A DNA stretch of 38,930 bases from a virus: positions 1-38,930 of IMG/VR virus record IMGVR_UViG_3300018421_000074. The stretch is one strand, 5' to 3'. The notes under the pieces were generated by a model. That model searched no databases. It worked only from the letters and a program-made list of their open reading frames with translations, and was not told the origin of the DNA. Positions 774 through 22,454 of the stretch are shown here, piece by piece. The position numbers were made by a program, and so were the translations under genes. The first letter of the stretch is position 1. The number at the start of each line of letters is the position of its first letter.

Positions 774-1193
774 ATGGCGTTAAAGCAAATTTCTGGTAAA
801 AATTTAAAGAGGTCTAAAAGTTTTAAGGACTTCAATATTTCGTTTGCCAGAAATTTGTTTACGGACGATGTATCTTCAGTCACAAATGAAAGTTCTATAA
901 AACAATCAATTAAGAATTTAATCTTAACTGTTCCTGGTGAAAAACCATTTCAACCTTTGATTGGGTCAAGAGTCTATGAACTTCTATTTGAACCACTAGA
1001 CGCTTTTACAGTTGACGCAATCCAAGACGAGATAATAAATACAATTACTCAGTATGAAAAACGGGTTGAGTTAACGAATGTTTCTGTAACTCCCATATAC
1101 GAAAATAATAAACTCAACGTATCTGTTGAATATCAAGTTGTTGGAGTTCCTGTGATAGAAGAAATTACATTTGTCTTACAAAAATTAGGATAA
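774..1193 (+). CDS. 25: baseplate wedge protein gp25
   Basis: gp25 is the small sheath-initiating wedge subunit at the inner baseplate ring of contractile tails; in T4 it joins gp6 and gp53. The 139-residue product is close to the 132 residues of T4 gp25. It carries the GPW/gp25 signature: the first half has DFNISFARN and SIKQSIKNLILTVPGEKPFQP, a Gly/Pro-rich turn, then GSRVYELLFEPLD, and the second half is a beta-rich segment ending in ITFVLQKLG. The ATG at 774 has no clear ribosome binding site. A competing ATG at 769 in another frame stops after four codons. The stop overlaps the gp6 start (TAATG), which suggests translational coupling. The assignment rests on motif, size and the following gp6. 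The old label lysozyme for this family reflects no catalytic activity visible here. Confidence 0.92.
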   Translation: MALKQISGKNLKRSKSFKDFNISFARNLFTDDVSSVTNESSIKQSIKNLILTVPGEKPFQPLIGSRVYELLFEPLDAFTVDAIQDEIINTITQYEKRVELTNVSVTPIYENNKLNVSVEYQVVGVPVIEEITFVLQKLG

Positions 1194-3229: not shown

Positions 3230-3233
3230 TTAG

Positions 3234-6200
3234 ATGAATATCAATAAGGTCTCTCAAGCAGTTTCAAATCAACTCCCAGACTTTATTTCTTCGGAGTATG
3301 AACTGTTTTCAAAGTTTATTGAATATTACTACAAATCCCAAGAAAAGACAGGACTGGGACAAAATATTCTTAACAACTTTTTAGAATATCTTGATATCGA
3401 TGAATTGGATATCAAGATTCTCGATGGAGAAACTATCTTAGTTGAAGATATTGATACAAAGTCGTCTACAATATCGGTACAAAGTGTAGAAAAGTTTTTA
3501 ACTGAAAATGGTTCTATCCTCATTGGCGATGAAGTAATTTTTTATGAAAAGACTGCTTCGGCACCAAACATTGCGTTTAGTCCTGGTATTTCCAATGAGC
3601 AAGTTCAATTAAAAACAATTGAACTTCAGAGTCCTCTTAGTATTTTTGATGGAACTACTAGAGAGTTTTCACTTTTAAGTCAGGATAGACCAATTGCTCC
3701 ACCTTCTGCGAAGCATTTAGTCGTTAGAGTTTATGGTGAGTATTTGGTTCCAGACACCGATTATCAAGTTTCTGGAAATAGCATTGTCTTTACCACTGCA
3801 CCAAGACAAGCATTAACTTCTGATAGTGCAGATGAAACTAGCATTCAGTTTTACAGTGGATTTTTAGAATCTGAAATTGCACTTCTTAATGATATCTCTG
3901 CATCTTTTGGAGATGGTCAAACTGAATTTAAAGTAACTCTTAGCGGAGAAAAGTTTGTACCTGAAGTCGATGAGTATATTTTAGCATACTACGATAAGAG
4001 ACTTTTAATTCCAAAACAAGATTTTGTCTTTGACAAAGATCTTATTATTTTTAGGAGCTTTGTTCCTTTAAAGGGAAGGAAATTAGATTTATTCTACATT
4101 GAAGCACCTATCCCCTCATTTGGTTCTGGTGCTTCTGCTTATGCAAGAGTAAATGACTCTGGTCAAGTCTCTTCTATCGCTATTAATGAGTCTGGGAAGA
4201 ACTATAGATTTGAATATCCACCTTCAATTACTATTGACTCTCAAAGCGGTGGTAGTGGTGCTGCAGCAATTGCACTTATCAATGGCGTAAAAAATCTTCA
4301 ATTGCTAACTGGTGGTGTAGGATACAGCGACGCAAATCCCCCAATTGTAAAAATTGAATCTCCAACTACGGAGGGTTCTACACCTGCCTCCATAAAAGCA
4401 ACTGTTGAAAATGGTAGTGTAACAAAATTAACCTTAGAAAGTTCTGGTAGTGGTTACACTTTTGTTCCACGAATCACATTTCAACAACCTGGTGGTGCTG
4501 TTGTAGAACCTCCAACTGTTGTAAATGGTTCTATCTCTGGCACACTTACTGTATCTAGTGGCGGTATTGGTTATACTACTGCACCAGCAATTTATATCGA
4601 TGAACCAACAGGTGAAAATGGAATTAAGGCAAATTTGAGAGCAAATTTGAATTCTGATGGTGAAGTTGTATCTGTAACCGTACTTAATCCTGGTCAAGGA
4701 TATGAAACTGTTCCCAGAGTTAAAATTATTGAACCAACTGGCGCTCAAGTTCTTGAAACTAGAGTTGATGGTGATGGACGAGTAATTGATATTGAAATTT
4801 TAGATGGTGGTTCTGGATATGAAGATATTCCCTCCGTTTATATTATTGATGACCGTGTAAGTAACACAGGACAGTATCTTGGTGGTTCTGGTGCTAAAGC
4901 AGCAGCATCTATTTTTAATGGAAGAATTACTGATATTAATATCACAAGTTTTGGTTCTGGATATAGTCAAGAGTTTCCTCCAAAGGTTGTTATTCAGGCA
5001 CCTCCACAAGCAGCAGCTTCTGTTGATATTGGTATCAATGAAATTACTGGATTTGAAATATTACAATCTGGTACTGGGTACTCTAAAGCACAGTTTTTGA
5101 ATTGTGCTAGAGCAGCAAGTGGTATTACTGGTTATGAAGAGAACGGTAATGTAATTTTTAGTGGAATTACTAGTGCATCTGCAGCAGTCTCAGAGACCCC
5201 AGTAAAGTGTCTTGATGCAGTTTTTGTAAAACGTATACTTGATAAGTACACCCAGCAATTTTTACCCGATGTTCCTGAACTTGATTATAAGGAAATTGAT
5301 GTAAGAACTGCTATCAAGAATATTAAAAGTTTTTATTCTACTAAAGGTACTACTTTTAGTATCGAGTATCTCTTTAAATTATTATATGGTGAAACAGTCA
5401 GTGTTTCATACCCCAAAGACCAAATTATCAAACCATCTGCAGCAACTTGGTCCATCAATACTATCTTGAGAGCCACTCTTGTTAGTGGCGATCCAAGAAA
5501 TATTCAAGATGCTTTGATTCAACAAGATGCTGATATTGCAGATATTAATGTAAAAGATGCTAGTGCTCTAGTTGAAAACTACATTGCAATTAATACTGCA
5601 AATACTACAATTTACGAATTGGTTCTTTCCGAAGAAACAATTCAGGGTTCTTTCATTGTTCCTTATAAGACAAAACTTGCTGAACCACTGGATGAAAATA
5701 CTAGTATTATTACAGTTGACTCGACAATTGGTTGGCCAGAAAGAAACGGTGAATTTGTAATTGCAGATTCTGAAGTTGTTCGATATAAGGAGAAATCGTT
5801 AAACCAGTTTATTGAATGTACTAGAGCAACTACAGGAACAGTTGGTGGAGTAGGTAATTCTAGATCTTGGGATTCTGCTACAGAAATTACCTCTAATTTT
5901 AGAGTTTATTTGAATAAAGGAACCTCTCAAGAGGTTGTGATGAATATCGTTGGTATTGTTGATGCTCAACAAACAACTTTAACTGATACTGGTTCATATT
6001 ATCTGCCTGGTGATAAGTTATCCGTTGCTAAGCTTGGTGGTACTGGTGAACAACCTTTATTGAACACCTGGTTATACAATGTTAAGAAATTGATTGAAGT
6101 TGAAAGTATTACTTTTGGTGGAATTAACGACAGATTTGCGACAGTTACCTGCACAAATAATCATGGTCTTCTTGTTGGAGACCAAGTGACCGTATATGGT

Positions 6201-9200
6201 GCAAATCCAATTCTGTATAATGGAACCTTTTCAGTAACTTCTAGAGATAGTGATACCGTTTTTCAATATCAACTTCCACAAACTGCTTTAGTTGAACCAC
6301 AAGGAAATATTCTTATTTCAGTTGACCTCAATAAAGGTAAGTCAACTGATGATGCAATTGATAATAATATCTCGGTTTATACTACTAACGTACAAAACTC
6401 GTTCTTTAACGATAATCATGTCTATATTGCATCTACAGGTATTCCAAACTATAATGTCGGACCTTTCCCTGGTTCTGCACTTCTTCCTGGAAACCAAAGA
6501 AAATTAAATAGATTTCCACAAACTCCAGTAACAATCTCTACAAAAGATTTAATCAAGCCTGGACCAATTGGTACATGGGTTAATGGCGTTTCAATTTGGT
6601 CGTATAAATCCACTGAAACCAAAACCTTTGGACCAATTGTAGATATTTCTATTTTAAATGGTGGTCAAGATTATGATGCCGCATCCCCACCAAATATCAA
6701 TATTGTTGGTGGCGGGGGTAGTGGAGCTACTGCTGAAGTCGTCGTAAATGGTTCTGTAACAGACATCCAGGTCGAGGAAGGAGGTTCTGGGTACACTTCT
6801 TCTCCTCTGGTTTCTATCGTTGGTGGAGGCGGTTCTGGAGCGTCTGCAACGGCAATCATTACTAAGGGTGTTGTATCTAATGTTTTGATTACCGATGGTG
6901 GTACAGGATACACTTCACAACCAACAATTACAATCGTTGGTGGTGGTGGACAGGGTGCTACTGCAACTGCTTCTGTTCGTGGACCAATTAAGTCAGCAAC
7001 TCTTCTAACTCAAGGAACTTCTTATACTTCAAATCCGACAGTTCGTATTAGTTCTGGATCTGGCGCTGTTGCACAAGCAATCGTCAACAATGGACGTATT
7101 ATTTCAATTGCTACTATTTCTGCTGGTGTTGGATATACAACTGCTCCAGAAGTACAAATTCAAGGTGAGGGATTTGGTGCAAAGGCAAGAGCAATTATTG
7201 ATACAGAAGGTGAAAACGCTGGTAAAGTAACTGGCATTGAAATTTTAAATAGAGGTATTGGATATGTACAAGGTACTACAGTTATCAATCTAACTTCTGT
7301 TGGACAAGATGCTGAATTTAGTGCTAATGTATTTAAGTGGACTTATAACTTACAAGAATCTTCTACATTTGATAATTCTTTAGGTTCTGTTTTTGAGGGT
7401 TATAATAATCAATATGGTGGCGAATATGCACACCTTTCCAATCCACAAAGACTCCGTTATATCTTAGGGGATAATTTATTCCTGAATACAAGTGGTGAAA
7501 TTAAAGAGCAAGAGACTCAATTAGGACACTCTCCTATTATTGGTTGGGCATTTGATGGAACTCCCATTTATGGTCCATATGGTTATCAGGACCCAACAGA
7601 TCAAGCATCCACAATTGTTAGAGTTTCTAGTTCTTATAGAGTAAAGACTAATTTAGTTTACAATGAAGTCTCCAATCCAAATCCTTATAGAATTGAAGGA
7701 CCTTCTCTATCAATAGATCCTGCAGGAACTTATATTGAGGACTATGAGTACACCTTTGCTTTGGGTGATTTAGACCAGTATAATGGACGTTTTTGTAAAA
7801 CGCCAGAATATCCAAATGGTAGATATTGCTATTTTGTAACTATTGATAATACTGAAGATGGCAATCCATTATTCCCCTATATCTTAGGTCCAAGTTTCAA
7901 TTCTGTTGTTGATATTTGGAATCTTTCTAGTGATGCTACACAGCAAAATATTCCCCGTGGCGTTGTTCGTTTCCGTGATCCATATCAGAATGTTGATATT
8001 GATGTAGAAAGAATTCCTAATGCTTCGACAAACTCTCTGTCTCTTGAGAATGGAGACCTATTACTCTTTGAAGTAGAGGATGAAAATAGAGATGGCGTAA
8101 TTAATCAAGAAGAACTTGATGACCCAGATCAAATTTTAGAAGAACCTCCCCTTCAGATTTTTGACTATTTCCCCAAAGTTAGAACTGAATCTAAGGTTGA
8201 TATTGAGGTAGAAACGACCAGTCGATTTGAAAATGCATCAATCACCGACTTTGTTATCGAAAATGCTGGTATCAGTTATCAGGTAAATGATAAATTAATT
8301 TTCGATAACACTGGAACAGGTGGTTCTGGTGCTTCTGCTAGAGTATCTAGAATTAAGGGTGAGAATATCATTTCTTATGGATATGAGTATCTAAATGGCG
8401 AGAACTATGGTGTTCTTAGAACAGAAGAACCTCATAACTTAATTGAAGGCGATACTGTTTTTATTGACTACAATGAAAACATTGAGAATACTAATAAAAC
8501 TTTTGTTGTTCGTCAATTTAAAGGTATTGAAGATATTGTAATTGACCAGAATGGAAGTGGGTATAATGATGATATTCCACCATCAATTATTATTGATGGT
8601 GATGGTGAAAGTGCTGAACTTGAAGCGGTTGTAGATTCTGTAGGTTCCATTAGAAAGGTAAATATTCTGAATTCTGGTAGTGGATATACTGAGAATCCTA
8701 GAGTTATCCTTTCACACCCACAGGTGTTTAAGAAAACCGATTACTTTATTTCTAAAATTGAAAATACAGAAGAATATGTCAAAGTTAATGATGTATTTGT
8801 AAATTCTGATAAAGAATCGTTTATCTGCGGGCAAACTTTAGATGCTGCTGGTAATACAGTTGCATTTGTTGCTAAGTTGTCTGCTGGTGGTGTCAAAGAG
8901 TGGGAAAAAACTCTTGAGTTAACATCTGGACAGTATTATTCAGAATTCCAGAAAATTTACGTTGATAATAATACAGTTTGGGTAGTTGGTATTAATAAAC
9001 CAAATAGTGTTATTTTGGATGCATATAACCCAGATGTTATTGTTGCAAAATATACTCAGGCGAATGATGGTCTGAGTGCAACTTTACAATTCCAAAAAGC
9101 ATATGCTGGTATTTCTGGTGGCACACGTTCGGATAATATTACTAAAATTATTCCATATGGTGAAGATAGAGTAATTATCTTCGGATATACAAATACAAAC

Positions 9201-12200
9201 TCTTCAAATCCTTATGATGGATTTATCGCTGTCTTAGATTCTACTGGCACATTTATTAGTAAGAGAAAAGTTTCCTCGACATCTTTCAGTGAAAAGATCG
9301 TTGATGCAGTTTTAAATTCTGATAATACTTTGTATTTTATCCTAGAAACTGGATTGACTCAGAACTCGGCAGACGTAGATTTTGCACTTGCGAGGGCAAC
9401 TATCAATAATGCTTCGATTACTATTGACTGGATTAAGGAGATAAAGAATTCTGCTTATTCTTTCCTGGATGCAAGTCTCGTAATTGATGAATTTAATGAA
9501 ATGTACGTATCCGCAACCCTTCAATTGAAGAGTGATGATACTACCAGAGACAGTTTCTGGGTAGGTAAGTTTAATGGTTCTGGTGAATCTATTTGGAATT
9601 ACAGATATCTTACACCAGGCAGAGATATTAATCTTGTTGCCAAATCTTCTCTTGATATTTTCAATGATTTGAATATTGTTTTTAGCAGAACAAATAATAC
9701 TAATGATAAGAAAACTGTTGATTCCTTAAAGATTAACTATAAGGGTGAAATTGTAAATCATTCGACTACTAATTTCACTGAAGGTAATGTTGAGGGCATT
9801 ACTGCTTATACTATGGATGTTGATGTTTCTGGTGATGTGTATATCTTTGGTCAGACATCTTGGAATAGAAATGAAGCAATCTATACATTCGATTCAGACT
9901 TATCGGATACAACAGAACACCATACATTAACTACTCTTGGACTTAGTGGTTCAGTTGTTAATGAGAATTCTATTCTGAAAATTTATGGATTCCAAACAGG
10001 TCAATCTACAGTTTGGGAAAATAGTGCAGCAAAGATTGCAGGAACATCTTTAGGTGATGCTCTTGGTGGAGATTTTACTATAGATTTCCTTATCTATAAA
10101 GACGATGCTAATGGATACGCAGAAACTTTAGTAGCAGACCAACAAACTCTCTTTGCTATTGGTGATGCAACCGATACAACTGGTGGTCTTTGGTTATATT
10201 ATAATACCGATGGTACTGCTGATAATGGTAGAATTGAATTGGTTGTTGCAAACGATACCAATTCTATTGCTGGTGCCTCTGCTGCTTTGGGAACAAATAG
10301 TAATTTGTTTGCGAATGATACTTGGCAGTTAATTTCTTTAAAAAAAGAAGGCAATAACTTTAAAGTATATGTAAATGGTATCGAACAAATTAGTGGTAAT
10401 GTTAACGATACATCTTTAGGTTCTAAGGATATTCATATTGGCAATATTCCTGGATTTGCTGGTGCTGGTGGATTTATTGAAGATAATCAAGGTCAATTCT
10501 TTGTAGATTCTCTTAGAATCCGTAACAGAGCAGTTGCTGTAACTGCTCCTAGTGATTTTGGTAATCCACTCACTCTTCCTGTTGCTAGTGCAATTGCTCT
10601 CAACTATACTTGGACAGACACTGATTGGTTTGCTCAACAACATGCAAGATATGACTACATTGATTATGTTGGATTTGGAATCAAGGTTGATAAAAATGCC
10701 GATGCGGTTAGATTAGATACATTTAATTCTAACATCAATACCGATTATGGATTTACTAGAACTTCTGTTTCTGCTGTAACTGGGTCTGCATTGACTCTTA
10801 CATCAACAGGTTATGCCATTGGAGAATCTGGATTACAATCCCTAGATTATAGTGATGCTCCTATCACGATGTCCGAAGGAACAGTTTCTCTTACTTATTC
10901 CAGAGATGTTTGGAGTTCTAGAACATCTACGGTTCCTTCCCCAGGTTCTCAAAAACTTAAAGTAACTGCGAATGTAAGAGATAGATATTATTTCAAGACA
11001 TTTGATATCGTTAAAATTGATAATGTTCAGGAACTGACTATTAATCAGAACTTTGTATTTACTGTTGGTGCAAAACTTGTCCTTAAGAATGGCACAACAT
11101 TTGTAAACAGTGGTTATATTACTAAAGTTGATTATGATAATAATAAAGTCTTTGTTGCAATTAATAACAATAGTTGGGACAATGATTTAAATGTATATGA
11201 ACTTTCCACTGAACAATTCGCTGAGCAAAGCAGCTATGGAGTTACAGGACCTGTTCCAAATGACATTAACGAAATTAATCGTACATTTGCTGAAATAAAC
11301 AATACTACTCCTGGAACATTTGACATCGATCTTGCCAATTTCGATGCTCCAGAAGATATTGGTGGAACTAATAATTTGGATGAGTATGCAAAGTTTAAGA
11401 CCTTTAATGATATTGATTATGCAGTAAGAATTGTTGAGGTTGGGGGTTCTTCTCCTTATTCTCCTGGTTCTGTAATTCAATTAGAATCTGGTCAAATTAC
11501 GTTCAATTCTTCATATACAACTACTCAAATTACTGGATTGACTGGTGTACTTAAGATTGATTTAGTTACAAATCTTTCTAAGATTTTACAAGTTACTGCA
11601 CTTGCTAACAGTGACACGGTATATGTAATCAGCAATACTCTTCATTATCTCCGTGAAGGTGAACAACTTTTCATCGATGGAAATCCATCTCAAACAGTTG
11701 GACTGACCGTTTATGATGAATATGATGGTTCTTTCCCTGTTGATGAAATTATTAGTCCTGTAGAATTTACCTATAAGTTAAATAGCGTTGCAGTTACATC
11801 TCCTGCCACATCTGCCTCCAGCGTGAGTGTATTTGTTAAGTCTCCAACTCTGAAGATGTACTATGGTCACCAGTATCTGTTTGACCTTAGTCACTCGTCT
11901 CTGCTTGGTGGAAATCTTTCATTCTCTAGAGACCCCGTTTATAAACTTGAATATTCTTTCAACTCTATTGAAAGAATTGGCACCCCAGGTGTTACTGGAC
12001 AGGGAGTACCAACTCCTTCTGTAAAACTCAAAGTAACTGAAGATGTAATTACAAATATCTCATATTACTTTGACCCATCTAGAACTGGTGTTGATTCTCC
12101 AATTATTCCAGAAAGTTACTTAGATGTTACTTTCTCTCCTTATGTTGGTACATTCTTGATTACATCGACATCTGGTGGCACAATTACTAGAGGTGATGAT

Positions 12201-15200
12201 ACTTTTAGATTCTTACTTCTGAATCAACCAGAAGATGTTGCTACCATTAGTAATGCATCTTACTCGACAAGTTCTACAAAGGCAGTTGGTTCTATTTCTA
12301 ATATCCGTATTGTAAATCCTGGTGGATTCTACAATAAACTTCCAATTGTTTCTTCTATTCAATCCACTAGAAATATTGAAAGAGTTGAAATTGAAGAACC
12401 TGGAACTGAATATGCGGTTGGTGTTTATGCTGGAGTTCCAATTCAAGGTGACGGTGAAGGTGGTCTTGTCTCAATTACCGTTGCCGATGGTAGTGATGAT
12501 GAAGGTGGACTCATCCCAGGACAAATACAAAAAGTCGTTGTTACAAGTCCTGGTAAAGGATATACTACTGCTTATATCGATATCGAATCAATTAATGGCA
12601 TTCTTGGCGCTGGTCTAACAGGTTCTGGTGCAATCCTCAATGTTGTTATTCCTCCATTTGGTACTGGCGCGTCTCTCTTTACTTTGGGTGAGGAGATTGG
12701 TAAGATTAAGAATCTGAAGAACAACAACTTTGGATTTGATTATACTCATGACTATACACTGAGACCAGAAATTACATTCCCAATTAATGCTCAACTGACA
12801 TCCACAAGTATTCTTGATAGTATTACTGTTACCGATCCTGGTTCTGGATATACTCAAGCACCTTCGGTTGTAATTACTGGTGGTGGTGGTTCTGGTGCAA
12901 TTGCAGAAGCTACTATTAAAAATGGTAGATTGAATACAATTGAAGTTAAGGATCCTGGTTCAGGTTATTCTTCTCAACCAAGTGTTGAATTGAAGTCTTC
13001 TTTCAACTATGTTATTAACCTTGACCTTGGATTACTCCAGTTTGCTTTCCCACATGGTATTCAAAATGGTGCTGAAATTACATTGAATGTAGTTGATACT
13101 GGTGAGGGAGTTGAATTTCCACTAGCATCTGGTGCTGTTGGAAGACTAAATGGCACTACTACATACTATGCAATTTCTGGAACAGAAAATTCTCTGGAAG
13201 ATGACCAACTGAAAATTGCTCTAACTGCAGCGAATGCTGAACTTGGAGATTCTATTAATTTTGTTAATGCTGGAACTGGTCGTCAGCAGGTATTAACAAG
13301 TTCTTTCGGTGCTACTGCTGAAGCAAATGTAATTACATCTACCTTCCTTGAAGGTGAACTTGTATATCAGGGCAACTCTCTCGATGTTGCAACTGCTACT
13401 GCATATGTTTCTACCAACTCTGGTTGGCAGGTTGGTCCTAGAATTCTCAAACTCGTCGATTACGAGGGAACATTTGTTCAGGGCGAAAGAGTAACTGGTG
13501 TTATTTCTAAGTCTTCTGGTATTATCTCAACACTTAAGATTGCTAGAGGTGTTCTTGAAGTTGGACCAATTACCAAAACAACAGGTCAATTTATTGATGA
13601 CGTTGGCAAACCTTCAGAAATTGTTCAGAAGATTCAGGACTCCTACTACTACCAAGACTTCTCCTATGCGGTCAAGTCTGCAGTATCGATTAGTGAATGG
13701 AAAGATATTCTCGTTAGAAATGTTCACCCAGCATCGTTTAAGGTATTTGGTGAATTGTCTATCAGTGATTACACTAATATTCCTAACAAGGACACTTTCT
13801 TTGAACTAACAAAGTCGGTTCAACTTGCAAATGAAGCAATTGTTCCAAATATTCAAAACTTTACTCTGGTTGAACCCGTTTATAGCGAGTTTAATAACAC
13901 TGAGGTTCTGTTCCGCCAGAAGAGACTGACATCTTCAGAAAATATTCTGACTTCAGTTGTTCAACGAATCGATGATATTTCAAATCTGTTTGATGGAGTT
14001 AGAACTGCATTCCCACTGACTGTCAATAATGGCGACCCTGTTATTGCTAATGCTAATCAGTTGATGGTTATTCTTAATGGTGTTGTTCAAACTCCAGAAG
14101 TTGCATTTGAGATTCAAAGTGATTCTATTGTCTTCTCTGAACCTCCAGCACCTCCTGCTAGTGTCAAATATGTAAACGTGGAGATTGAGCAAATTTCTAC
14201 AGTTGATTTGGAATTTACCAGCATCAGCGGCATTGTCCCAAATATGGGTAATGTCCTAACTGGTACTGCATCTGGAGCAAGATTAACCGTAACAAAAGTC
14301 GTTGGTAATACTATTTCTGGTTTCTTTACTGAGGGAACAGCGTTCACTACTAATGAACTTGTGTTGGGCAACACAACTGGTTTTGCAGCAATCTTTACGC
14401 TCCAAACATCGGTAGTTAATAATGGTCTCTTTATCTTTGGTGAAAATATCACTAACTTAGAGGGCAATACTGCTGTTATTGAAGATGTCAACCTCGAAAA
14501 AGGTTCTGAGGCACCTTTAGCAAAACTTCGTTATGGTGTAGGACTTTCTACAACTTCATTTGAAGTTATTAGTTACACTGCAACAGTTGATGAACCTGTC
14601 GCTCCTCCATCCGATGTATTTACAATTGGTGATAATTATCAGATTGGTAGTGAAATTGTTGAGGTAACGGGAATTGTACAGAATAATGATTCTACTACAT
14701 TGACAGTTCTTAGAGGTCAACTTGGAACGAGCGTTCTCTCTCTTCAACAAGAAACTCCTTTCTATGGAACAAATATTACAATTACAAATGATTTAACTTT
14801 AAGTAAGACCACTGGTACATATCAATCAACTCCTGGTCTTTATGATATTGTTCTTGGTGATGTTATTGTTGCAGCTCAATCTGGCGTTGTTGCTAGAATT
14901 ACTTCAACCACACCTTATAGAGACCCAGTAACCGATTCTGTTGTTGAGCAAGTAGAAATTTCTGAAGGTTCTTCTTTCTTTGCTTTACTCTTTGACAGAC
15001 TTTCCTCCGTTACATATCCAAACATTGTTCTTGATGACATTTCGCAATCTCAGATTGCAGTGGTTGATTTTGATGATAATGTAACCGATTTTAATACCAA
15101 GTTCCCAGAAAATGAATTAGTAACAAATTACATTCTTCCATATGATAATGAAAGTGGTGAATTTGTAGATGGTGAATTTATCAAGAACCATAAGATTGAA

Positions 15201-18200
15201 TATGGCAATTCTACTGGTGATTTCTTGTCTTCTGAAGAACTTATCATCAGAAAACTAACTCTTACAAACGCTGATGGCTCTGGATTCTTCTCATCTGGTC
15301 ATATCATTCGTTCTGAAGATACCAAAGCTGAGGTTATTGGTTACAATCAAGCAAGAAAAACTGTTTATCTTGGAAAAATTGGAAGATGCCTTTCTACTGG
15401 AAAAGATGTACATGAATTTACTTTTAATGGAGATGCAAAACTCTCCACAACACAGAAGAAGTTTGGCAATACATCACTGTACCTCGATGGAACGGGAGAT
15501 TACGTAACGGAGTCTTCTTCTACTGATTATGCGATTGGCGCCGATCCATATACACTTGAAATGTGGATTCGTCCAGACGTAGCATCTATTACTGGTACAG
15601 CAACTTTATTTGATATGAGAGTTGGTGCAACTGAAGTTGCAATGAGATTGTATATTGAAAATGCTCAACCTCGCTTTAATGTTAATGGTGTTGATATCAT
15701 TAGTTCCAGCACTAATGTTGCTGAAGATATTTGGTATCATCTTGCAGTAGTTAGAAATACTACTGGGGCAAATGATACTAAGATGTATATTAATGGTGCA
15801 GAAGTTGGAACTGGAACTGATGCAAGTACCTATGTTGCTAAACCAGTCAGCATTGGTGCTGATTATACAAATGCTAATCTGTATGCTGGTTATATTGATG
15901 AATTGAGATTCTCCAATCTTGCTCGTTATACAGCAGCATTTACTGCTCGCAATGGATTATTCCAAGGAGATGTAAATACTAAACTTCTTGTTCACTTTGA
16001 TGGTGAAAATGACCAAACTTACACGGAAGATTGGTCTGGAGCACAAGACTTTACATTTGGTGAACTCTTTAATAATGATGCTATCCTTGCGACTTATAAT
16101 GCAAATAATCAAACTGCTCCAGTTGCAGGATTTACTGGCAATAGTCAGAGATACCTTGATGCTGCAAACTTACTTGAAGGAAACAAAAATTTCATTGCAA
16201 AAGAAGTTGTTTATCTGACCAAGCAGCAGTATCCTTCCCTGGTTATTCCTGGTGGTGATGTAAATTGTGAAGATGATATCCGTGATGTAGTTCAGCAAAT
16301 CTGTGAAGACCTTCGTAATGGTTCCAACAGTCATATGTGGGACGCAGCAGCGATTTATGTTGATAGAACAGTTCCCTCTGCAGTCACCCTCAACCACATT
16401 GAGACTGAAGTTGAAGAAACAATCTGGGCATACAACAAAGTTGGTGATATGATTCCTTATATCATCAATAATGTTCTCTGGACAGTATCTGGTTCTCATG
16501 GAGTAACTCAGTTTACTGATACTACAATTACAGATTCTAACAATACTGTATATACTCAGTTTACTCCAACTGATGCTACTTATGACCCAGCAACAGGTGA
16601 TATGGTTCTGACCATTGGGTCCCACAGTTTGACTACCAATGACCAAATTAAGATTGCTGCTGGTTCTATTGTATTCACATGTGATTCTGATGATAATGCC
16701 ACTCAGCACGCTTATCCACGTACTGATGACCCATTCTATAATAAGGTCATTGGCATCGATGCTGTAGGTGCTACAACTATTACTGTGAACGTTGGTGAGT
16801 CTCCAGAAGATGCTCAGTTTGTACATACGTTTGTTTCTGCAAGTACAAATGCAGTTTCTGTACTCAACTATACAACTGGCGACTGTGCCGACGTTGTATC
16901 CACAGCAGATAACCTCCTGAACATTCTGGTTGACACCCTCGATCAAGCAAGTCAGGTTACTCCTGTTGACCACCTCGGTAGTGTTACTAAGGTTGAACCT
17001 GAAATTGAATATCTCGGTGCTACCGTAGATGATTACTATGAGGTTGACTTTGCAGCAAACTATACCGATGATGCAAATGATGTTCTTTATTCCAATATCA
17101 TTGGTTCTGTTGATAGAAACAGATTCTATGATGCCGCAAACTTAATTCGTGCCAATAGAACTGCAATTGTCGATAAAGCATCATACGATCTCATTCAGAG
17201 ATATCCAGACCTTGCGCTGGACATGCCTAGAAATGAAGATGGTAGTGGTGACGGAACCGATAGATGTAAAGTTGACCTTGGTCTTATCCTCGACTCTATT
17301 GCTACTGACATTGAAGTTGGTGGAAATCTCGATACAGTATCTGCCGCTAAGTTCTACATCGGTGCAAATAATCGTCTTCTTCACATTAGATTGCAAATCT
17401 GGCAGTCTGTATACGCACATACAAGACTTGGTTACTATGCAAAACAAGCAATCACAGGAGACCTTGATGATACCAACACTAATGCATTGATTATCGGTGA
17501 CTGGGGTATTACTAATGACCCTGGTAACTGTGCCAATGTTCAAAGTGCAATTGATACTCTTATTACCAAGTTGAATGATACAATTGCCCCAACTGGTGAT
17601 GATTATAATATTGCTGCTGATAGACTCTATTTCAATAGAGACTTTATCGCAGAGGAAGCAGTAGGTTTACTGGATCAAGAGTTTACTTATACTCTTAATA
17701 ATATTTCTTATAATGCATTCTCGTATCCAGATGGTAGTGCGGGTAGAACTACTTGCATCAGAGACCTCAAGAGTTACATTCTTCCTAGCATCATCTCCGA
17801 TTTACAAACAGGTGGAAACAATAGCACTATTGAAGCAATTGAATTCTATTTGACCGCAAATCTGCAGTTGAACCACATTGAAGAACAACTTTCTGCAACT
17901 ATCTTTGCAATTGAACAACTGAGATTCTTGGGACTCAAGGCAATTCAAAATCAGTTATATGATAGAGGAGTTGGCGTAATTGATCCTCTGTATTCTGCAG
18001 TATACAGTGAAACTCCCGCATATCGTGATGTACTGACCATGACGAACGTTCAGGCAGTTATGGCAAAATATGGTGAGTTAGTTGACATTGCTGTTAATAT
18101 TCTGTCTCCTGCTGGTAAACCAGGTAGATTTGCTTCTCAACAACTTCTCTTCAATAAGAATTACTATAGAGGAGAAATTGCCAATGTCATCGACAGTCAA

Positions 18201-21200
18201 TTCGGTGCTGGTTCTTGGCAGTACAATGACTTTATTGATGGATTGGTTGAAAACCTCTCCCATGACATTATTATCACTGATACTTCTTCTGGAAATACGA
18301 CAGAAGCAAGAAGAATTTCTCTGCAAAGAGAGGGTGTTATCAGCGAACTGCAATTCACTGGTGGCACTGGATACAGAAGCACTCCAACAGTTTCAATTGC
18401 AGCACCTGTATCTGGCACTCAAGCAGCAGCGATTGCTGAACTTGAACCTGATGGTCCTTTGAATATCATTAGTGTTACTGATGGTGGTTCTGGATATACA
18501 TATCCACCCGTAATCACACTTAGTGGCACAAATATTACTCAAGATGGTGCTACAGCAATTCTTACTGGAAATGCGGTAACTTCGATTGTTTATGATGGCA
18601 TTGTTTTTGATGCTGATGATTTTGTTAACTTCGGTGCTGGTACTGAAGCACAAAATAGTGGTGCTGGAACTACTTCTACTGATGGATTCTTAACTGGTAA
18701 TCGCTATGTTAGATTTGGTGCTGCAAATGGCGCTAGACAGTGCGAAACTACAGATTTGAATACTATTAACTCTGACAGATTCCGTGCTTATGTGATTGCT
18801 GGTAATGGTACTAATGGTGGTGATACACCAGAAACTAATGATGATTTAATTCTTGAATATTCTACTGACCTTGGTGCAACTTGGACAACAATTCAAACCT
18901 TAATTGCTGGTTCTAATGCTGCATCGTTTACGACATTAACACCAGTTGTTGCCAATCTTCCTGCTGGCGCAAAAACGTCTCAGACTAGATTTAGAATTAG
19001 ACAGACTCAGTTTGAAAATAACGTAATCTATGATCATTATGGTTTAGCTAGATTTGGTGTTATTGATGACCAAAAACGTTTTGAGGGAGTAATCTCGGTA
19101 TTGTTCTCCGATGCAGAAGAAGAGTTGTCCGCAACACAAGATGCTGAAGCAGACTTCCAAACTCTCAGAGTAGTTCAGACCGTAACTATCACCAATCCTG
19201 GTACTGGTTATGACCCAGCAAATCCACCAACAGTAACATTTGTTGGCGGTAATCCACAAGTTGCTGGTACTTTTACCAATGTTAACGTTGTTCTTGATAC
19301 CCAAAGATTCACCAAGGGAGAAACACTCACATCCAGTGGTGGTGGTACGGCAGAGGTTCTTGAAGATACTGGTAATGCTCTGTATATTGGACCAATTACA
19401 GGAACAGTATTTGCTGATGGTGACTTGTTAACTGGTGGAGATTCTAATGTAACATCTACAATTCCTGTTAGTGGCGTTGGATCTGTATTCGATTACTACG
19501 TTAATGTTGGTAATGTACTGACATTCAACGACGCGAGACTCATTCAGTCTCCAGTTGAATCTGAGTTCTCTACAACTAATTTGTGGACAAACCCAGAAGC
19601 ATTCCAAGTCAACTGGAATTCTAGTGATACAACATGGATTGCTAATAATGCAATTTCTCCAGATAATACACAAACAGCAGAAAAAATTACAGCAGATGCA
19701 ACATCTGCTATCCATACGTTTGATAGAGTATACACACTTGCTCCATTCAACACTTTTGATGACGGTTTAATTAAATTTGATACTGCATTAACTAGTTTTG
19801 ATGAAGGTGCTTCTATTGATGGTGAAAATCAGACATACACAACTTCTGTATTCTTGAAAGCTGGTGAATTTAATCGTGTCAGATTTATTGCTGCACTCGA
19901 TTATGGACAAGCATCTCAACAAAGAGTATTCTTTGATATTGATTTGACCGATGGTTCTACTGGTTCTATTTTCCAAACAGAAGGTGGATTGATTAGTTAT
20001 TCTACTGGAGTCATTCCATTCGGAAATGGTTGGTATAGAGTATATGCTACTATGCAGTTCTCCTTCGGTTTCTCTGACCTTACAACACAAGTTGAAGTTA
20101 GAAATGCTAGTGGAGCACAAATTTATACTGGTGATGGTACTTCGGGTATTTTTGTTTGGGGTGCTAAACTCAATAAGGGTGTCTTTGATGCATATACTGC
20201 TGTTGGCGGTGATATCTTCTACTCTAATTCTGAATACAACATCAAGAATTTTGCTCTGACAATTTTAGAAGATTATATTGAAGCGGCACTTAATGGTGCA
20301 TTAGCATCTCCTTCTGCTAATTCTAATTATGCCTTTGATAATCCCGATTGGAGATTGGAGTATAATACTGACGCAATTCTCACAATTGTTAGGGAGAATA
20401 TTGACTTCTATAGACAACAACTTGACAATAGTATCTACTATGCAGGAGTAACTGTTAATCCTGGCATTACTCTTCCCCCTAAAGAATATGGAATTACATA
20501 TTTACCCACAGGAGTTGGTGGAGGTATTACTACTTCTGATTACTTCTATGGTCTTTACAGCAATAATAACGCTGAAGTTAAGACAGTATTTGAAAATAGA
20601 GCAAAAATTGCCAAGGTCTTCAAGAGATTCCGTATTGATGGTGATATTACTGATGGACCTTTCACTATGGGCGAAGAGGTACAAAAGCAGGGCGATCCTT
20701 CTGTAACTGGTCTTGTTTATGGATTCTTTGAAGATGAAAACTATAAGTATCTCGATGTTGAAGTTACAGCAGGAACCTGGCAAATTCTAGATGTAATCGA
20801 AGGACAGGAGAATACTACAACAGCAGTTCTCAGTGCTATTGAGAATAGACTTCATCTCATTAAACTTATTGGTAATTTTACAGAAGATATTCCTTTCCTT
20901 GGATATACAAATAGCTATACCGCAACTCCTACAGGATTCCTACGTGCTGAGTCTGCAGTTCTTGACAACTCTGGTGGTAAGTTAACAGTTGATACGGATA
21001 CATTAGTTGGAACATATGAGACAACAAGTGTTGTTTACGCTGGAACCACAGAATTATATCTTGAAGTACAGCAATATACTGGATTAGATGTTTCCATTGG
21101 TTCCAGAATTATTTCTGGCGGTTATACCCGTCTGGGTGTTGCTGATGCATCTGGATTTACTGTTGGTAATTATATCTACAGATATATTTCTAGACGTGAC

Positions 21201-22454
21201 ACTTCTAAGCAAGCAATTATCACGGGTGTTGATACTGATAACAATTACATTTACATTTCACCTATTGTTGGCGACTTTATCATTACAGACCCAATTGCAG
21301 ACTTTGGTCCTGCTGGCGGTGGTGCTCTTGCGGTTGCAAATACTACAATTACGACAAAAGTAGTTGTTTCTGGCGGTGCTTATGGTCTTGTTAATGATAT
21401 TCGCACAGTTGGTATTAATAAGCGCCTGTATTTGACTAACGTTATTGGAACTTGGTCTGAGTATGACTATGTAATTTCTACTGATGGTTATAAGTCCGTA
21501 ATTCTTGATAAGGTTATCGCACGCGCCCGCGTGAAGAGATCCTTCAGAGGATTTGATGGTTCTCAAACTACATTTGACCTTACTATCAATAATGGCACCG
21601 CATACCTGCCCGATCCTGCAGGTCACATGCTCATCTTTGTCAATGGTATTCTGCAACCTCCTGGTGCTGGCAATGCATACAACGCATTCTCCGATAAAAT
21701 TCAATTTAGCGAACCACCCGATCCTGGTTCAACATTTACTGGATTCTATGTTGGTAAACTGAGACAGTTGGATGATATTTCGTTCGAGTTTGACTCGCTG
21801 CGTCAGTCTTTCAACCTCAAGCGCGATGATGTTTTCTACTCGCTGACTTTGACAGAGGGTGTACAATCTTCTACAATTAGACCTGAAAACAACATTATTG
21901 TTTCACTCAATGGTGTTATTCAGGAACCTGGTGTTGGTTTTGAGATTGTTGGTTCGAGAATTATCTTCTCGGAAATTCCTCGCGTTGGATCTAGTTTTGC
22001 AGCGTTCTCTTACGTTGGTTCTGAAGCAGACGTTGATGCTGCTGAAGTTGTCCCACCAATTGAACCAGGTGATATTATTTCCATTCAGGGTGAAACTGAA
22101 GACCGTGAAGTTGCTGTTATTGAATCTTCCAACTCTTTGATTACGTTCGACTATCTTGGTTCTGTGTTTGGACAAAATGCAGATGCAACCGCGATATTAA
22201 GAACTGGATTTATCGATAAGGTCGTAATTACTGCACCTGGTTCTGGATATGTAAATAGACCTGTTGTTCGTGTTGATTCTATCAGTGGATTTGATGCAAA
22301 CATCAGAGCAATTGTTGGAATCAATGTTGTTGAAGTTACCAATTCTGGTAGTGGATATAAGGCACCAGAGGTTCTTGTCGAATCCGAAGTTCCCGACGAC
22401 TGGACTCCACCCAACCTCGCTGACTATGGCGAAGAGTTGGTTATTTATGATTGA
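3234..22454 (+). CDS. 7: giant gp7-like baseplate wedge protein with multi-domain insertions (6,406 aa)
   Basis: In T4, gp7 (1,032 aa) is the wedge scaffold linking gp6, gp8 and gp10. This frame lies between gp6 and gp8 as T4 gene 7 does, and holds three blocks resembling the gp7 C-terminal region: LPDFISSEYELFSKFIEYYY (residues 14-33), FYSTKGTTFSIEYLFKLLYGE (around 700-720), and YYYQDFSYAVKSAVS plus NVHPASFKVFGE (about 3471-3508). Between and after them, in order: two LNG modules (137-295); GSGY repeats (300-622 and 1136-1350); a YHYH domain (about 1390-1557); an EF-hand-like loop (1616-1627); a propeller-like region (1831-2213); LamG-like (2221-2436); a degenerate cupredoxin-like stretch (about 2870-2957); an LNG module (3586-3656); LamG-like (4058-4244); helical repeats (4309-5010); reelin-like (5143-5278); CBM-like jelly roll (5433-5661); two LNG modules (6107-6263); two GSGY repeats. 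There is no stop or frame break, no signal peptide and no membrane segment. No ribosome binding site is clear; coupling to gp6 is likely. The gp7 identity is an inference from memory of the T4 sequence. Confidence 0.78.
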   Translation: MNINKVSQAVSNQLPDFISSEYELFSKFIEYYYKSQEKTGLGQNILNNFLEYLDIDELDIKILDGETILVEDIDTKSSTISVQSVEKFLTENGSILIGDEVIFYEKTASAPNIAFSPGISNEQVQLKTIELQSPLSIFDGTTREFSLLSQDRPIAPPSAKHLVVRVYGEYLVPDTDYQVSGNSIVFTTAPRQALTSDSADETSIQFYSGFLESEIALLNDISASFGDGQTEFKVTLSGEKFVPEVDEYILAYYDKRLLIPKQDFVFDKDLIIFRSFVPLKGRKLDLFYIEAPIPSFGSGASAYARVNDSGQVSSIAINESGKNYRFEYPPSITIDSQSGGSGAAAIALINGVKNLQLLTGGVGYSDANPPIVKIESPTTEGSTPASIKATVENGSVTKLTLESSGSGYTFVPRITFQQPGGAVVEPPTVVNGSISGTLTVSSGGIGYTTAPAIYIDEPTGENGIKANLRANLNSDGEVVSVTVLNPGQGYETVPRVKIIEPTGAQVLETRVDGDGRVIDIEILDGGSGYEDIPSVYIIDDRVSNTGQYLGGSGAKAAASIFNGRITDINITSFGSGYSQEFPPKVVIQAPPQAAASVDIGINEITGFEILQSGTGYSKAQFLNCARAASGITGYEENGNVIFSGITSASAAVSETPVKCLDAVFVKRILDKYTQQFLPDVPELDYKEIDVRTAIKNIKSFYSTKGTTFSIEYLFKLLYGETVSVSYPKDQIIKPSAATWSINTILRATLVSGDPRNIQDALIQQDADIADINVKDASALVENYIAINTANTTIYELVLSEETIQGSFIVPYKTKLAEPLDENTSIITVDSTIGWPERNGEFVIADSEVVRYKEKSLNQFIECTRATTGTVGGVGNSRSWDSATEITSNFRVYLNKGTSQEVVMNIVGIVDAQQTTLTDTGSYYLPGDKLSVAKLGGTGEQPLLNTWLYNVKKLIEVESITFGGINDRFATVTCTNNHGLLVGDQVTVYGANPILYNGTFSVTSRDSDTVFQYQLPQTALVEPQGNILISVDLNKGKSTDDAIDNNISVYTTNVQNSFFNDNHVYIASTGIPNYNVGPFPGSALLPGNQRKLNRFPQTPVTISTKDLIKPGPIGTWVNGVSIWSYKSTETKTFGPIVDISILNGGQDYDAASPPNINIVGGGGSGATAEVVVNGSVTDIQVEEGGSGYTSSPLVSIVGGGGSGASATAIITKGVVSNVLITDGGTGYTSQPTITIVGGGGQGATATASVRGPIKSATLLTQGTSYTSNPTVRISSGSGAVAQAIVNNGRIISIATISAGVGYTTAPEVQIQGEGFGAKARAIIDTEGENAGKVTGIEILNRGIGYVQGTTVINLTSVGQDAEFSANVFKWTYNLQESSTFDNSLGSVFEGYNNQYGGEYAHLSNPQRLRYILGDNLFLNTSGEIKEQETQLGHSPIIGWAFDGTPIYGPYGYQDPTDQASTIVRVSSSYRVKTNLVYNEVSNPNPYRIEGPSLSIDPAGTYIEDYEYTFALGDLDQYNGRFCKTPEYPNGRYCYFVTIDNTEDGNPLFPYILGPSFNSVVDIWNLSSDATQQNIPRGVVRFRDPYQNVDIDVERIPNASTNSLSLENGDLLLFEVEDENRDGVINQEELDDPDQILEEPPLQIFDYFPKVRTESKVDIEVETTSRFENASITDFVIENAGISYQVNDKLIFDNTGTGGSGASARVSRIKGENIISYGYEYLNGENYGVLRTEEPHNLIEGDTVFIDYNENIENTNKTFVVRQFKGIEDIVIDQNGSGYNDDIPPSIIIDGDGESAELEAVVDSVGSIRKVNILNSGSGYTENPRVILSHPQVFKKTDYFISKIENTEEYVKVNDVFVNSDKESFICGQTLDAAGNTVAFVAKLSAGGVKEWEKTLELTSGQYYSEFQKIYVDNNTVWVVGINKPNSVILDAYNPDVIVAKYTQANDGLSATLQFQKAYAGISGGTRSDNITKIIPYGEDRVIIFGYTNTNSSNPYDGFIAVLDSTGTFISKRKVSSTSFSEKIVDAVLNSDNTLYFILETGLTQNSADVDFALARATINNASITIDWIKEIKNSAYSFLDASLVIDEFNEMYVSATLQLKSDDTTRDSFWVGKFNGSGESIWNYRYLTPGRDINLVAKSSLDIFNDLNIVFSRTNNTNDKKTVDSLKINYKGEIVNHSTTNFTEGNVEGITAYTMDVDVSGDVYIFGQTSWNRNEAIYTFDSDLSDTTEHHTLTTLGLSGSVVNENSILKIYGFQTGQSTVWENSAAKIAGTSLGDALGGDFTIDFLIYKDDANGYAETLVADQQTLFAIGDATDTTGGLWLYYNTDGTADNGRIELVVANDTNSIAGASAALGTNSNLFANDTWQLISLKKEGNNFKVYVNGIEQISGNVNDTSLGSKDIHIGNIPGFAGAGGFIEDNQGQFFVDSLRIRNRAVAVTAPSDFGNPLTLPVASAIALNYTWTDTDWFAQQHARYDYIDYVGFGIKVDKNADAVRLDTFNSNINTDYGFTRTSVSAVTGSALTLTSTGYAIGESGLQSLDYSDAPITMSEGTVSLTYSRDVWSSRTSTVPSPGSQKLKVTANVRDRYYFKTFDIVKIDNVQELTINQNFVFTVGAKLVLKNGTTFVNSGYITKVDYDNNKVFVAINNNSWDNDLNVYELSTEQFAEQSSYGVTGPVPNDINEINRTFAEINNTTPGTFDIDLANFDAPEDIGGTNNLDEYAKFKTFNDIDYAVRIVEVGGSSPYSPGSVIQLESGQITFNSSYTTTQITGLTGVLKIDLVTNLSKILQVTALANSDTVYVISNTLHYLREGEQLFIDGNPSQTVGLTVYDEYDGSFPVDEIISPVEFTYKLNSVAVTSPATSASSVSVFVKSPTLKMYYGHQYLFDLSHSSLLGGNLSFSRDPVYKLEYSFNSIERIGTPGVTGQGVPTPSVKLKVTEDVITNISYYFDPSRTGVDSPIIPESYLDVTFSPYVGTFLITSTSGGTITRGDDTFRFLLLNQPEDVATISNASYSTSSTKAVGSISNIRIVNPGGFYNKLPIVSSIQSTRNIERVEIEEPGTEYAVGVYAGVPIQGDGEGGLVSITVADGSDDEGGLIPGQIQKVVVTSPGKGYTTAYIDIESINGILGAGLTGSGAILNVVIPPFGTGASLFTLGEEIGKIKNLKNNNFGFDYTHDYTLRPEITFPINAQLTSTSILDSITVTDPGSGYTQAPSVVITGGGGSGAIAEATIKNGRLNTIEVKDPGSGYSSQPSVELKSSFNYVINLDLGLLQFAFPHGIQNGAEITLNVVDTGEGVEFPLASGAVGRLNGTTTYYAISGTENSLEDDQLKIALTAANAELGDSINFVNAGTGRQQVLTSSFGATAEANVITSTFLEGELVYQGNSLDVATATAYVSTNSGWQVGPRILKLVDYEGTFVQGERVTGVISKSSGIISTLKIARGVLEVGPITKTTGQFIDDVGKPSEIVQKIQDSYYYQDFSYAVKSAVSISEWKDILVRNVHPASFKVFGELSISDYTNIPNKDTFFELTKSVQLANEAIVPNIQNFTLVEPVYSEFNNTEVLFRQKRLTSSENILTSVVQRIDDISNLFDGVRTAFPLTVNNGDPVIANANQLMVILNGVVQTPEVAFEIQSDSIVFSEPPAPPASVKYVNVEIEQISTVDLEFTSISGIVPNMGNVLTGTASGARLTVTKVVGNTISGFFTEGTAFTTNELVLGNTTGFAAIFTLQTSVVNNGLFIFGENITNLEGNTAVIEDVNLEKGSEAPLAKLRYGVGLSTTSFEVISYTATVDEPVAPPSDVFTIGDNYQIGSEIVEVTGIVQNNDSTTLTVLRGQLGTSVLSLQQETPFYGTNITITNDLTLSKTTGTYQSTPGLYDIVLGDVIVAAQSGVVARITSTTPYRDPVTDSVVEQVEISEGSSFFALLFDRLSSVTYPNIVLDDISQSQIAVVDFDDNVTDFNTKFPENELVTNYILPYDNESGEFVDGEFIKNHKIEYGNSTGDFLSSEELIIRKLTLTNADGSGFFSSGHIIRSEDTKAEVIGYNQARKTVYLGKIGRCLSTGKDVHEFTFNGDAKLSTTQKKFGNTSLYLDGTGDYVTESSSTDYAIGADPYTLEMWIRPDVASITGTATLFDMRVGATEVAMRLYIENAQPRFNVNGVDIISSSTNVAEDIWYHLAVVRNTTGANDTKMYINGAEVGTGTDASTYVAKPVSIGADYTNANLYAGYIDELRFSNLARYTAAFTARNGLFQGDVNTKLLVHFDGENDQTYTEDWSGAQDFTFGELFNNDAILATYNANNQTAPVAGFTGNSQRYLDAANLLEGNKNFIAKEVVYLTKQQYPSLVIPGGDVNCEDDIRDVVQQICEDLRNGSNSHMWDAAAIYVDRTVPSAVTLNHIETEVEETIWAYNKVGDMIPYIINNVLWTVSGSHGVTQFTDTTITDSNNTVYTQFTPTDATYDPATGDMVLTIGSHSLTTNDQIKIAAGSIVFTCDSDDNATQHAYPRTDDPFYNKVIGIDAVGATTITVNVGESPEDAQFVHTFVSASTNAVSVLNYTTGDCADVVSTADNLLNILVDTLDQASQVTPVDHLGSVTKVEPEIEYLGATVDDYYEVDFAANYTDDANDVLYSNIIGSVDRNRFYDAANLIRANRTAIVDKASYDLIQRYPDLALDMPRNEDGSGDGTDRCKVDLGLILDSIATDIEVGGNLDTVSAAKFYIGANNRLLHIRLQIWQSVYAHTRLGYYAKQAITGDLDDTNTNALIIGDWGITNDPGNCANVQSAIDTLITKLNDTIAPTGDDYNIAADRLYFNRDFIAEEAVGLLDQEFTYTLNNISYNAFSYPDGSAGRTTCIRDLKSYILPSIISDLQTGGNNSTIEAIEFYLTANLQLNHIEEQLSATIFAIEQLRFLGLKAIQNQLYDRGVGVIDPLYSAVYSETPAYRDVLTMTNVQAVMAKYGELVDIAVNILSPAGKPGRFASQQLLFNKNYYRGEIANVIDSQFGAGSWQYNDFIDGLVENLSHDIIITDTSSGNTTEARRISLQREGVISELQFTGGTGYRSTPTVSIAAPVSGTQAAAIAELEPDGPLNIISVTDGGSGYTYPPVITLSGTNITQDGATAILTGNAVTSIVYDGIVFDADDFVNFGAGTEAQNSGAGTTSTDGFLTGNRYVRFGAANGARQCETTDLNTINSDRFRAYVIAGNGTNGGDTPETNDDLILEYSTDLGATWTTIQTLIAGSNAASFTTLTPVVANLPAGAKTSQTRFRIRQTQFENNVIYDHYGLARFGVIDDQKRFEGVISVLFSDAEEELSATQDAEADFQTLRVVQTVTITNPGTGYDPANPPTVTFVGGNPQVAGTFTNVNVVLDTQRFTKGETLTSSGGGTAEVLEDTGNALYIGPITGTVFADGDLLTGGDSNVTSTIPVSGVGSVFDYYVNVGNVLTFNDARLIQSPVESEFSTTNLWTNPEAFQVNWNSSDTTWIANNAISPDNTQTAEKITADATSAIHTFDRVYTLAPFNTFDDGLIKFDTALTSFDEGASIDGENQTYTTSVFLKAGEFNRVRFIAALDYGQASQQRVFFDIDLTDGSTGSIFQTEGGLISYSTGVIPFGNGWYRVYATMQFSFGFSDLTTQVEVRNASGAQIYTGDGTSGIFVWGAKLNKGVFDAYTAVGGDIFYSNSEYNIKNFALTILEDYIEAALNGALASPSANSNYAFDNPDWRLEYNTDAILTIVRENIDFYRQQLDNSIYYAGVTVNPGITLPPKEYGITYLPTGVGGGITTSDYFYGLYSNNNAEVKTVFENRAKIAKVFKRFRIDGDITDGPFTMGEEVQKQGDPSVTGLVYGFFEDENYKYLDVEVTAGTWQILDVIEGQENTTTAVLSAIENRLHLIKLIGNFTEDIPFLGYTNSYTATPTGFLRAESAVLDNSGGKLTVDTDTLVGTYETTSVVYAGTTELYLEVQQYTGLDVSIGSRIISGGYTRLGVADASGFTVGNYIYRYISRRDTSKQAIITGVDTDNNYIYISPIVGDFIITDPIADFGPAGGGALAVANTTITTKVVVSGGAYGLVNDIRTVGINKRLYLTNVIGTWSEYDYVISTDGYKSVILDKVIARARVKRSFRGFDGSQTTFDLTINNGTAYLPDPAGHMLIFVNGILQPPGAGNAYNAFSDKIQFSEPPDPGSTFTGFYVGKLRQLDDISFEFDSLRQSFNLKRDDVFYSLTLTEGVQSSTIRPENNIIVSLNGVIQEPGVGFEIVGSRIIFSEIPRVGSSFAAFSYVGSEADVDAAEVVPPIEPGDIISIQGETEDREVAVIESSNSLITFDYLGSVFGQNADATAILRTGFIDKVVITAPGSGYVNRPVVRVDSISGFDANIRAIVGINVVEVTNSGSGYKAPEVLVESEVPDDWTPPNLADYGEELVIYD
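4130..5100 (+). repeat. GSGY beta-repeat cluster A (8 copies) in the giant protein
   Basis: This stretch encodes residues about 300-622 and contains eight imperfect copies of a 35-50-residue unit. The unit is a beta strand, an xxGSGY turn, a Pro-containing strand (xxPxVxI), an optional GGSGAxA linker and a strand ending NG-x-V/I. Visible anchors include TGGVGYSDANPP, ESSGSGYTFVPR, SSGGIGYTTAPA, NPGQGYETVPR, DGGSGYEDIPS and FGSGYSQEFPP. The repeat lies between the first two gp7 landmarks. The regular alternation suggests a beta-solenoid or a string of small beta domains. Confidence 0.8.
6640..7285 (+). repeat. GSGY beta-repeat cluster B (6 copies) in the giant protein
   Basis: This stretch encodes residues about 1136-1350. 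It has the most regular copies of the unit: GGQDYDAASPP, EGGSGYTSSP, DGGTGYTSQP, TQGTSYTSNP, SAGVGYTTAP and NRGIGYVQG. The first three are followed by a near-identical IVGGGG(S/Q)GA(T/S)A linker. At the DNA level the GGTGGTGG-rich linkers are visibly repetitive, which suggests recent duplication or strong constraint compared with cluster A. Confidence 0.82.
16150..18270 (+). repeat. alpha-helical tandem repeats inside the giant protein (3 full, 1 partial)
   Basis: This stretch encodes residues about 4306-5010. Each unit starts with a helix of the form DAAxLxxxNxxFIxxEA, followed by a YP-containing loop, a CxxDIxxxLxxIxxDLxxGGN helix, an AxxFYxxxN helix and an HIExxxxxTIxAI helix. Copies begin near residues 4309 (DAANLLEGNKNFIAKE), 4633 (DAANLIRANRTAIVDK), 4793 (AADRLYFNRDFIAEEA) and 4967 (SQQLLFNKNYYRGEIA, partial). 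Between copies 1 and 2 lies a beta-rich insert. I do not recognise a named family. It is the only clearly helical section in an otherwise beta-rich protein. Confidence 0.72.

Follow-up and report, generated by a model that had tools for sequence, protein, structure and literature searches.

A 6,406-residue cyanophage protein as a very probable gp7 ortholog with its core split by long inserts

In T4 and related machines, the baseplate wedge is built by a (gp6)2-gp7 trimer (PMC6300606, PMC10457771). T4 gp7 (PDB 5IV5, 5HX2) has 1,032 residues and its gene follows gp6. Much smaller is gp17 of XM1 (242 aa), an ortholog of T4 gp7 that forms a core bundle with gp6-like subunits and in which six tail spikes are held by loop 80–106 and another six by the C-terminus (PMC10457771). 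A compact gp7 family (PF23786) is represented by Salmonella phage SKML-39, Moby and pf16. Very long gp7s are on record from cyanophages, among them P-SSM2 (AY939844), S-SM2 (GU071095) and S-RIM50, in which R290704_094 (KU594605, 6,405 aa) is named baseplate wedge initiator gp7. Together with gp10 and gp12, gp7 has been described as so divergent that these proteins form up to nine clusters (Sullivan 2010, PMC3037559). The giant gp7 analysed here is not a new discovery, as public records already carry the gp7 label for orthologs just as large, and our literature search found no paper describing giant cyanophage gp7s as such. What is new is a test of homology, a series of sizes spanning 284–8,573 aa and the correction of inconsistent gene names.

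The DNA analysed, referred to as the window, is a virus record of 38,930 bases with all main genes on the plus strand (Table 1). The giant gene lies immediately 3′ of gp25–gp6, a feature of gp7 orthologs of T4-like phages. An earlier note on this DNA, made from the sequence alone, had placed the gene between gp6 and gp8 as in T4; it does follow gp6, but two genes (408 and 1,543 aa) precede gp8. The note's reading of a single intact, stop-free frame of 6,406 residues was confirmed, and its three putative gp7 blocks were found in the translation at the positions it gave: residues 14–33 (LPDFISSEYELFSKFIEYYY), 700–720 (FYSTKGTTFSIEYLFKLLYGE) and 3471–3508 (YYYQDFSYAVKSAVSISEWKDILVRNVHPASFKVFGEL). 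An assembly artefact or false ORF was ruled out by S-RIM50, where the gene recurs with one residue fewer at the same position after gp25–gp6, and by dN/dS that is low throughout. The S-RIM50 protein has all the core blocks and modules of the window protein, with an identity of 68–94% per 200 residues and ordinary divergence only. Compared with this gene, dN/dS is 0.08–0.19 in the inserts and lower in core blocks 2 and 3, values that are rough with dS near 1; judged by these rough values, the inserts are under purifying selection. At the far end of the window, the protein with an Mtd N-terminal domain is a possible receptor-binding protein.

Table 1. Genes of the window and segments of the giant gene, with approximate residues marked by ~
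Feature	Position	Strand	Remarks
PAAR-type protein	27-584	+	
gp25	774-1193	+	
gp6	1193-3229	+	
Giant gene, very probably gp7, 6,406 aa, ~692 kDa	3234-22454	+	
Core block 1, residues 1-57 (predicted gp6-gp7 core-bundle helix)	3234-3404	+	82 bits (the non-T4 profile itself contains the window sequence); hhalign
Insert 1, residues 58-658	3405-5207	+	GxGY motif run at 361-613
Core block 2 and following conserved region, residues 659-811	5208-5666	+	hhalign, profile; dN/dS 0.035 (rough)
Insert 2, residues 812-3446	5667-13571	+	ends conserved; middle (~1900-2700) variable; GxGY runs
YHYH domain (PF14240), residues 1386-1539, within insert 2	7389-7850	+	E 1.6e-32
Core block 3, residues 3447-3520	13572-13793	+	110 bits; hhalign to T4 862-895; dN/dS 0.026 (rough)
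C-terminal extension, residues 3521-6406	13794-22451	+	modules gained/lost ~3900-5400
Laminin-G/concanavalin-like domain (PF13385), residues 4085-4231	15486-15926	+	E 4e-20
Repeated modules without assigned fold, residues ~4302-5000	16137-18233	+	self matches
Reelin subrepeat-B-like stretch, residues 5160-5263	18711-19022	+	region absent from Syn19, P-SSM7
Conserved C-terminal region, residues 5789-6406	20598-22451	+	
gp9/gp10 N-terminal-domain protein, 408 aa	22489-23715	+	
1,543-aa protein	23728-28359	+	relatives named baseplate wedge initiator; without gp7 core; YHYH and GxGY modules in common with gp7
gp8	28394-29926	+	
2,476-aa DUF4815 protein	29926-37356	+	
Mtd N-terminal domain (PF18454) protein	37878-38930	+	contig ends inside gene

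The assignment to gp7 was examined block by block. One profile per block was built from cyanophage and bridging phages with every T4-type sequence left out, and five T4-type gp7s (T4, RB49, LPCS28, F86 and P19) were searched with it, the noise level being set by 2,000 shuffled proteins. In each of the five, the block 2 profile scored 24–27 bits at the homologous position (T4 729–759; best shuffle 6.5), and its hhalign comparison with T4-type gp7 gave a probability of 95.6 and an E-value of 1.2e-8. The block 3 profile reached 7.3–12.5 bits at one homologous place, again in five of five (T4 862–889). Because the T4 score alone (7.3 bits) is not above noise (best shuffle 7.8), the strength of block 3 lies in the agreement of the five T4-type gp7s and in its hhalign match to the T4-type family (E 4.8e-5). 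Block 1 aligned with T4 644–691 at E 0.0085, which is weak and near noise alone, yet it lies inside the bridging alignment described below. By block profiles, hhalign and the bridging family, the blocks therefore align with gp7 in the same order as in T4, and their T4 counterparts (~644–691, 728–763 and 862–895) lie close together in the C-terminal part of the protein, as the earlier note had stated. The T4 protein differs in that ~640 residues precede block 1 and large inserts are lacking. In addition, the T4-type Pfam models PF21427, PF21428 and PF21456 (domains V, VI and helical) gave no match at E <= 0.1 in the window protein and none at E <= 1 in compact gp7s. The compact-family model PF23786 does reach the window protein, with 28 bits (cut-off 27) when residues 1–800 were scanned and 24.2 bits when residues 1–3000 were scanned; a phmmer search of residues 1–800 against the PDB gave no match. 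By sequence, the window protein is classed as a gp7 but not as a member of the T4-type gp7 subfamily.

The bridge between the two groups is a compact gp7 family from viral contigs (e.g., a 481-aa protein, L111), in which all three blocks lie near each other. Its profile was aligned by hhalign with the T4-type family over T4 640–914 (E 4.6e-17), and the window clade matched the compact family at residues 656–955 (E 4.2e-20) and 3250–3543 (E 1.2e-18). The first of these stretches aligns across the domain V region between blocks 2 and 3, with insert 2 starting within or just after it. Among all PDB sequences, the best matches to the compact profile were gp7 of KP1 (E 9e-13) and of T4 (E 6.4e-9), with a tail sheath protein third (E 0.024). 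L111 was modelled without templates in AlphaFold2 (mean pLDDT 56) and the model was compared with 350,542 chains by Foldseek; the only matches at E <= 0.001 were T4-type gp7s (T4, KP1); VIA Z values were 10.4, 10.2 and 7.4 for T4-type gp7s and 5.5 for the next chain. These matches have an rmsd of ~19 Å, so that separate local parts match and not a single rigid fit. The apparent fold match is that of the modelled compact relative. Together, the profiles, the bridging family and the predicted fold of the compact relative support the identification of a gp7 with a split core, and we regard the giant protein as almost certainly a gp7 ortholog.

A side observation concerns the GxGY module (positions ~190–310 of the compact gp7 profile), which is similar to domain I of gp18, the tail sheath protein: PF22639 matched Moby at 3.6e-5 (below the cut-off), PDB sheath chains matched at E 0.02–0.3, and a 663-aa T4 ORF that is probably gp18 matched at E 6.9e-5 (T4 98800–99009).

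Gp7s with mapped block positions form a graded series in length: SKML-39 (284 aa), Moby (503), pf16 (523), Cr30 (767), Melnitz (896), phiN3 (1,006), T4 (1,032), DLP6 (1,288), S-CRM01 (1,454), MA10 (1,942), S-PM2 (3,048), S-CAM9 (3,884), S-SM2 (4,156), S-CAM7 (4,314), P-SSM2 (5,195), S-ShM2 (6,198), S-RIM50 (6,405), the window protein (6,406), Syn19 (6,483), S-SZBM1 (6,619), P-SSM7 (7,124) and P-RSM6 (8,573). The last of these (L105, 7908–33629) is the largest in the series. At the short end, SKML-39, Moby and pf16 have the same three blocks with almost no inserts. The 128 complete gp7s from viral contigs with all blocks are nearly all of 481–1,618 aa, a consequence of queries biased towards short proteins. 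P-SSM2 and S-SM2 have the same three blocks at the same gene position, and resemble the window protein in a large insert 2, a C-terminal extension and a match to the YHYH region; they differ in that blocks 1 and 2 are only ~100 residues apart, the tail consists mostly of other modules and gp8 directly follows the gene. PHROG 701 spans the window protein end to end, and at least 80% of its first 2,833 residues are covered by a single place in each of 283 phage records.

In the window protein, 602 residues separate blocks 1 and 2, 2,689 separate blocks 2 and 3, and 2,887 follow block 3. The two large expansions in the earlier note (~2,700 and ~2,900 residues) thus stand, and a third of ~600 residues between blocks 1 and 2 had been missed. 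The proposal that a T4-like gp7 has taken in these residues holds in part: inserts and tail enlarge the cyanophage core, but T4 is also enlarged, ahead of block 1. The ~640 residues found there are absent from the window protein, where block 1 begins at residue 1. Block 1 is likewise the starting point of compact gp7s (284 to ~520 aa), so the simplest reading is that a small core was enlarged on two separate occasions, in T4 by the residues in front and in the cyanophages by inserts and a tail. The sites of enlargement in the giant protein are of the same kind as the spike-holding sites of XM1 gp17 (internal loops and C-terminus), a likeness by description only. One record, ACG-2014b C61 (L268, KJ019040; 20001–37065), has a gp7 of 3,544 aa followed directly by a shortened DUF4815-type gene. 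It was set aside as a natural variant without the C-terminal half, being probably an assembly deletion, since the gp9-like, 1,543-aa and gp8 genes are also missing and the record is ~17.7 kb short.

The inserts are modular and unevenly conserved. Compared with S-RIM50, Syn19, P-SSM7, S-ShM2 and P-RSM6, conservation is high at residues 800–1900, 2800–3600 and 5800–6406 and low at 2000–2700 and ~3900–5800, where modules are gained and lost. A single cyanophage record can hold relatives of the repeated modules at as many as ten places, some of them annotated as tail fibre, and a phmmer search of residues 4000–5100 against the PDB gave no match. A Pfam Phycobilisome match in the repeats was judged spurious, as no stretch passes alone. 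An AlphaFold2 model of residues 5789–6406 (mean pLDDT 53.5, confident only at about residues 6–84 and 150–308 of the piece) gave no reliable Foldseek match; endosialidases were the top hits at a probability of ~0.1 and were not trusted.

On this basis, the giant protein is probably the gp7 ortholog of a T4-like cyanophage (Kyanoviridae) with its core seated in the wedge with gp6 and its inserts projecting as module-bearing arms. Residues 1–57, 659–811 and 3447–3520 would fold together as does the T4 gp7 core, and this core would pair with two gp6 chains to form the (gp6)2-gp7 scaffold of each wedge. The ~600 and 2,690 looped-out residues and the 2,890 trailing residues would project from the wedge as strings of mostly beta-rich modules, and their lectin-like and fibre-like modules and fibre contacts may serve adhesion or fibre attachment. 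The chances that the inserts have this projecting, adhesive or fibre-attaching role seem to us about even. Our inference is that the inserts form arms along the edge of the baseplate and either bear fibres or take their place; an external skirt or fibre array on the wedge, as the earlier note proposed, is plausible. The figure of ~38,000 residues added by six copies was overstated, as 38,436 is the total of six copies, which exceeds that of six copies of T4 gp7 by ~32,200.

A different use of the inserts, which we consider possible though doubtful, is as internal scaffolding that glues neighbouring wedges and the large baseplate proteins (the 1,543-aa protein, gp8 and the 2,476-aa protein) rather than as arms in contact with the host. 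The good conservation of the core-flanking parts and the last 600 residues, unlike typical receptor-binding tips, fits such scaffolding, as do the GxGY modules common to the giant gp7, the 1,543-aa protein and gp8. Against it, modules are gained and lost at ~3900–5400, the middle of insert 2 varies, and the protein carries lectin-like modules and modules common to proteins annotated as tail fibre.

An ortholog of the giant protein is present in virions. In CsCl-purified virions of S-SZBM1, protein S-SZBM1_208 (6,619 aa) was detected by 71 peptides with 13.5% coverage and an emPAI of 0.41 (PMC9146016 Table 1); it has all three blocks and is 47% identical to the window protein over the first 2,200 residues. 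In S-CREM2, ORF122 (5,814 bases, in a 75 kb region), a possible counterpart by its gp6–gp8 neighbourhood, was detected by 91 unique peptides (PMC10665884). A gp7 with a normal core whose chain is cleaved post-translationally to give several virion proteins, the core and separate fibres, is improbable: the S-SZBM1 peptides are listed under a single entry that represents the complete 724-kDa product, although chain length is beyond the reach of bottom-up data, and cleavage between the blocks would split the gp7 core.

Consistent with the gp7 assignment, no other gene encoding a complete gp7, the outcome that would have spoken against it, was seen in the window, which is a phage fragment, or in eight complete cyanophage genomes. 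Within the window, a second gp7 was ruled out, as no core block was found in gp6, the 408-aa and 1,543-aa proteins, gp8, the 2,476-aa protein or the Mtd N-terminal domain protein. In the eight genomes, core positions 5–202 and 277–418 of the compact profile match the giant ORF only, and other ORFs match only positions ~140–320, mainly the GxGY module at ~190–310. Record names had pointed elsewhere, with a 573-aa protein of S-ShM2 called gp7 and S-SZBM1_205 (615 aa) and the S-RIM50 neighbour called wedge initiator, but that one of these or the 1,543-aa neighbour is the true gp7 and the giant an unrelated structural protein is extremely unlikely and is refuted at the sequence level, since none of these proteins has the core blocks. 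Such labels seem to arise from the YHYH and GxGY modules that these proteins have in common with the giant gp7s. The small proteins so labelled (L106 21440–23161 and L269 6260–8107) are without the gp7 core. The names of the smaller S-ShM2 and S-SZBM1 proteins are corrected accordingly.

With lengths from 284 to 8,573 aa, gp7 clearly exemplifies a protein whose core is fixed but whose insertion sites are highly elastic. Few marine viruses are as abundant as the T4-like cyanophages, and how these phages hold and contact their hosts is poorly known. The genes g10, g11, g12, g34, g35, g37 and wac are not present in all of them (2010 review, PMC2984593), and the Pfam models GP11 and Gp10_C were undetected in the eight complete cyanophage genomes, where diverged versions are possible. 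The inserts may take over part of the outer baseplate formed by gp10, gp11 and gp12 in T4. A stronger version, which we put forward tentatively and consider rather unlikely, is that cyanophage gp7 itself constitutes much of the outer baseplate and host-contact apparatus, with exchangeable adhesin and fibre modules replacing separate gp10, gp11 and gp12. If true, this would help account for the apparent lack of several tail-fibre and outer-baseplate genes of the T4 type in these phages. With the giant protein established as a gp7 and the openings in its core mapped, the missing outer baseplate has a concrete, testable place.
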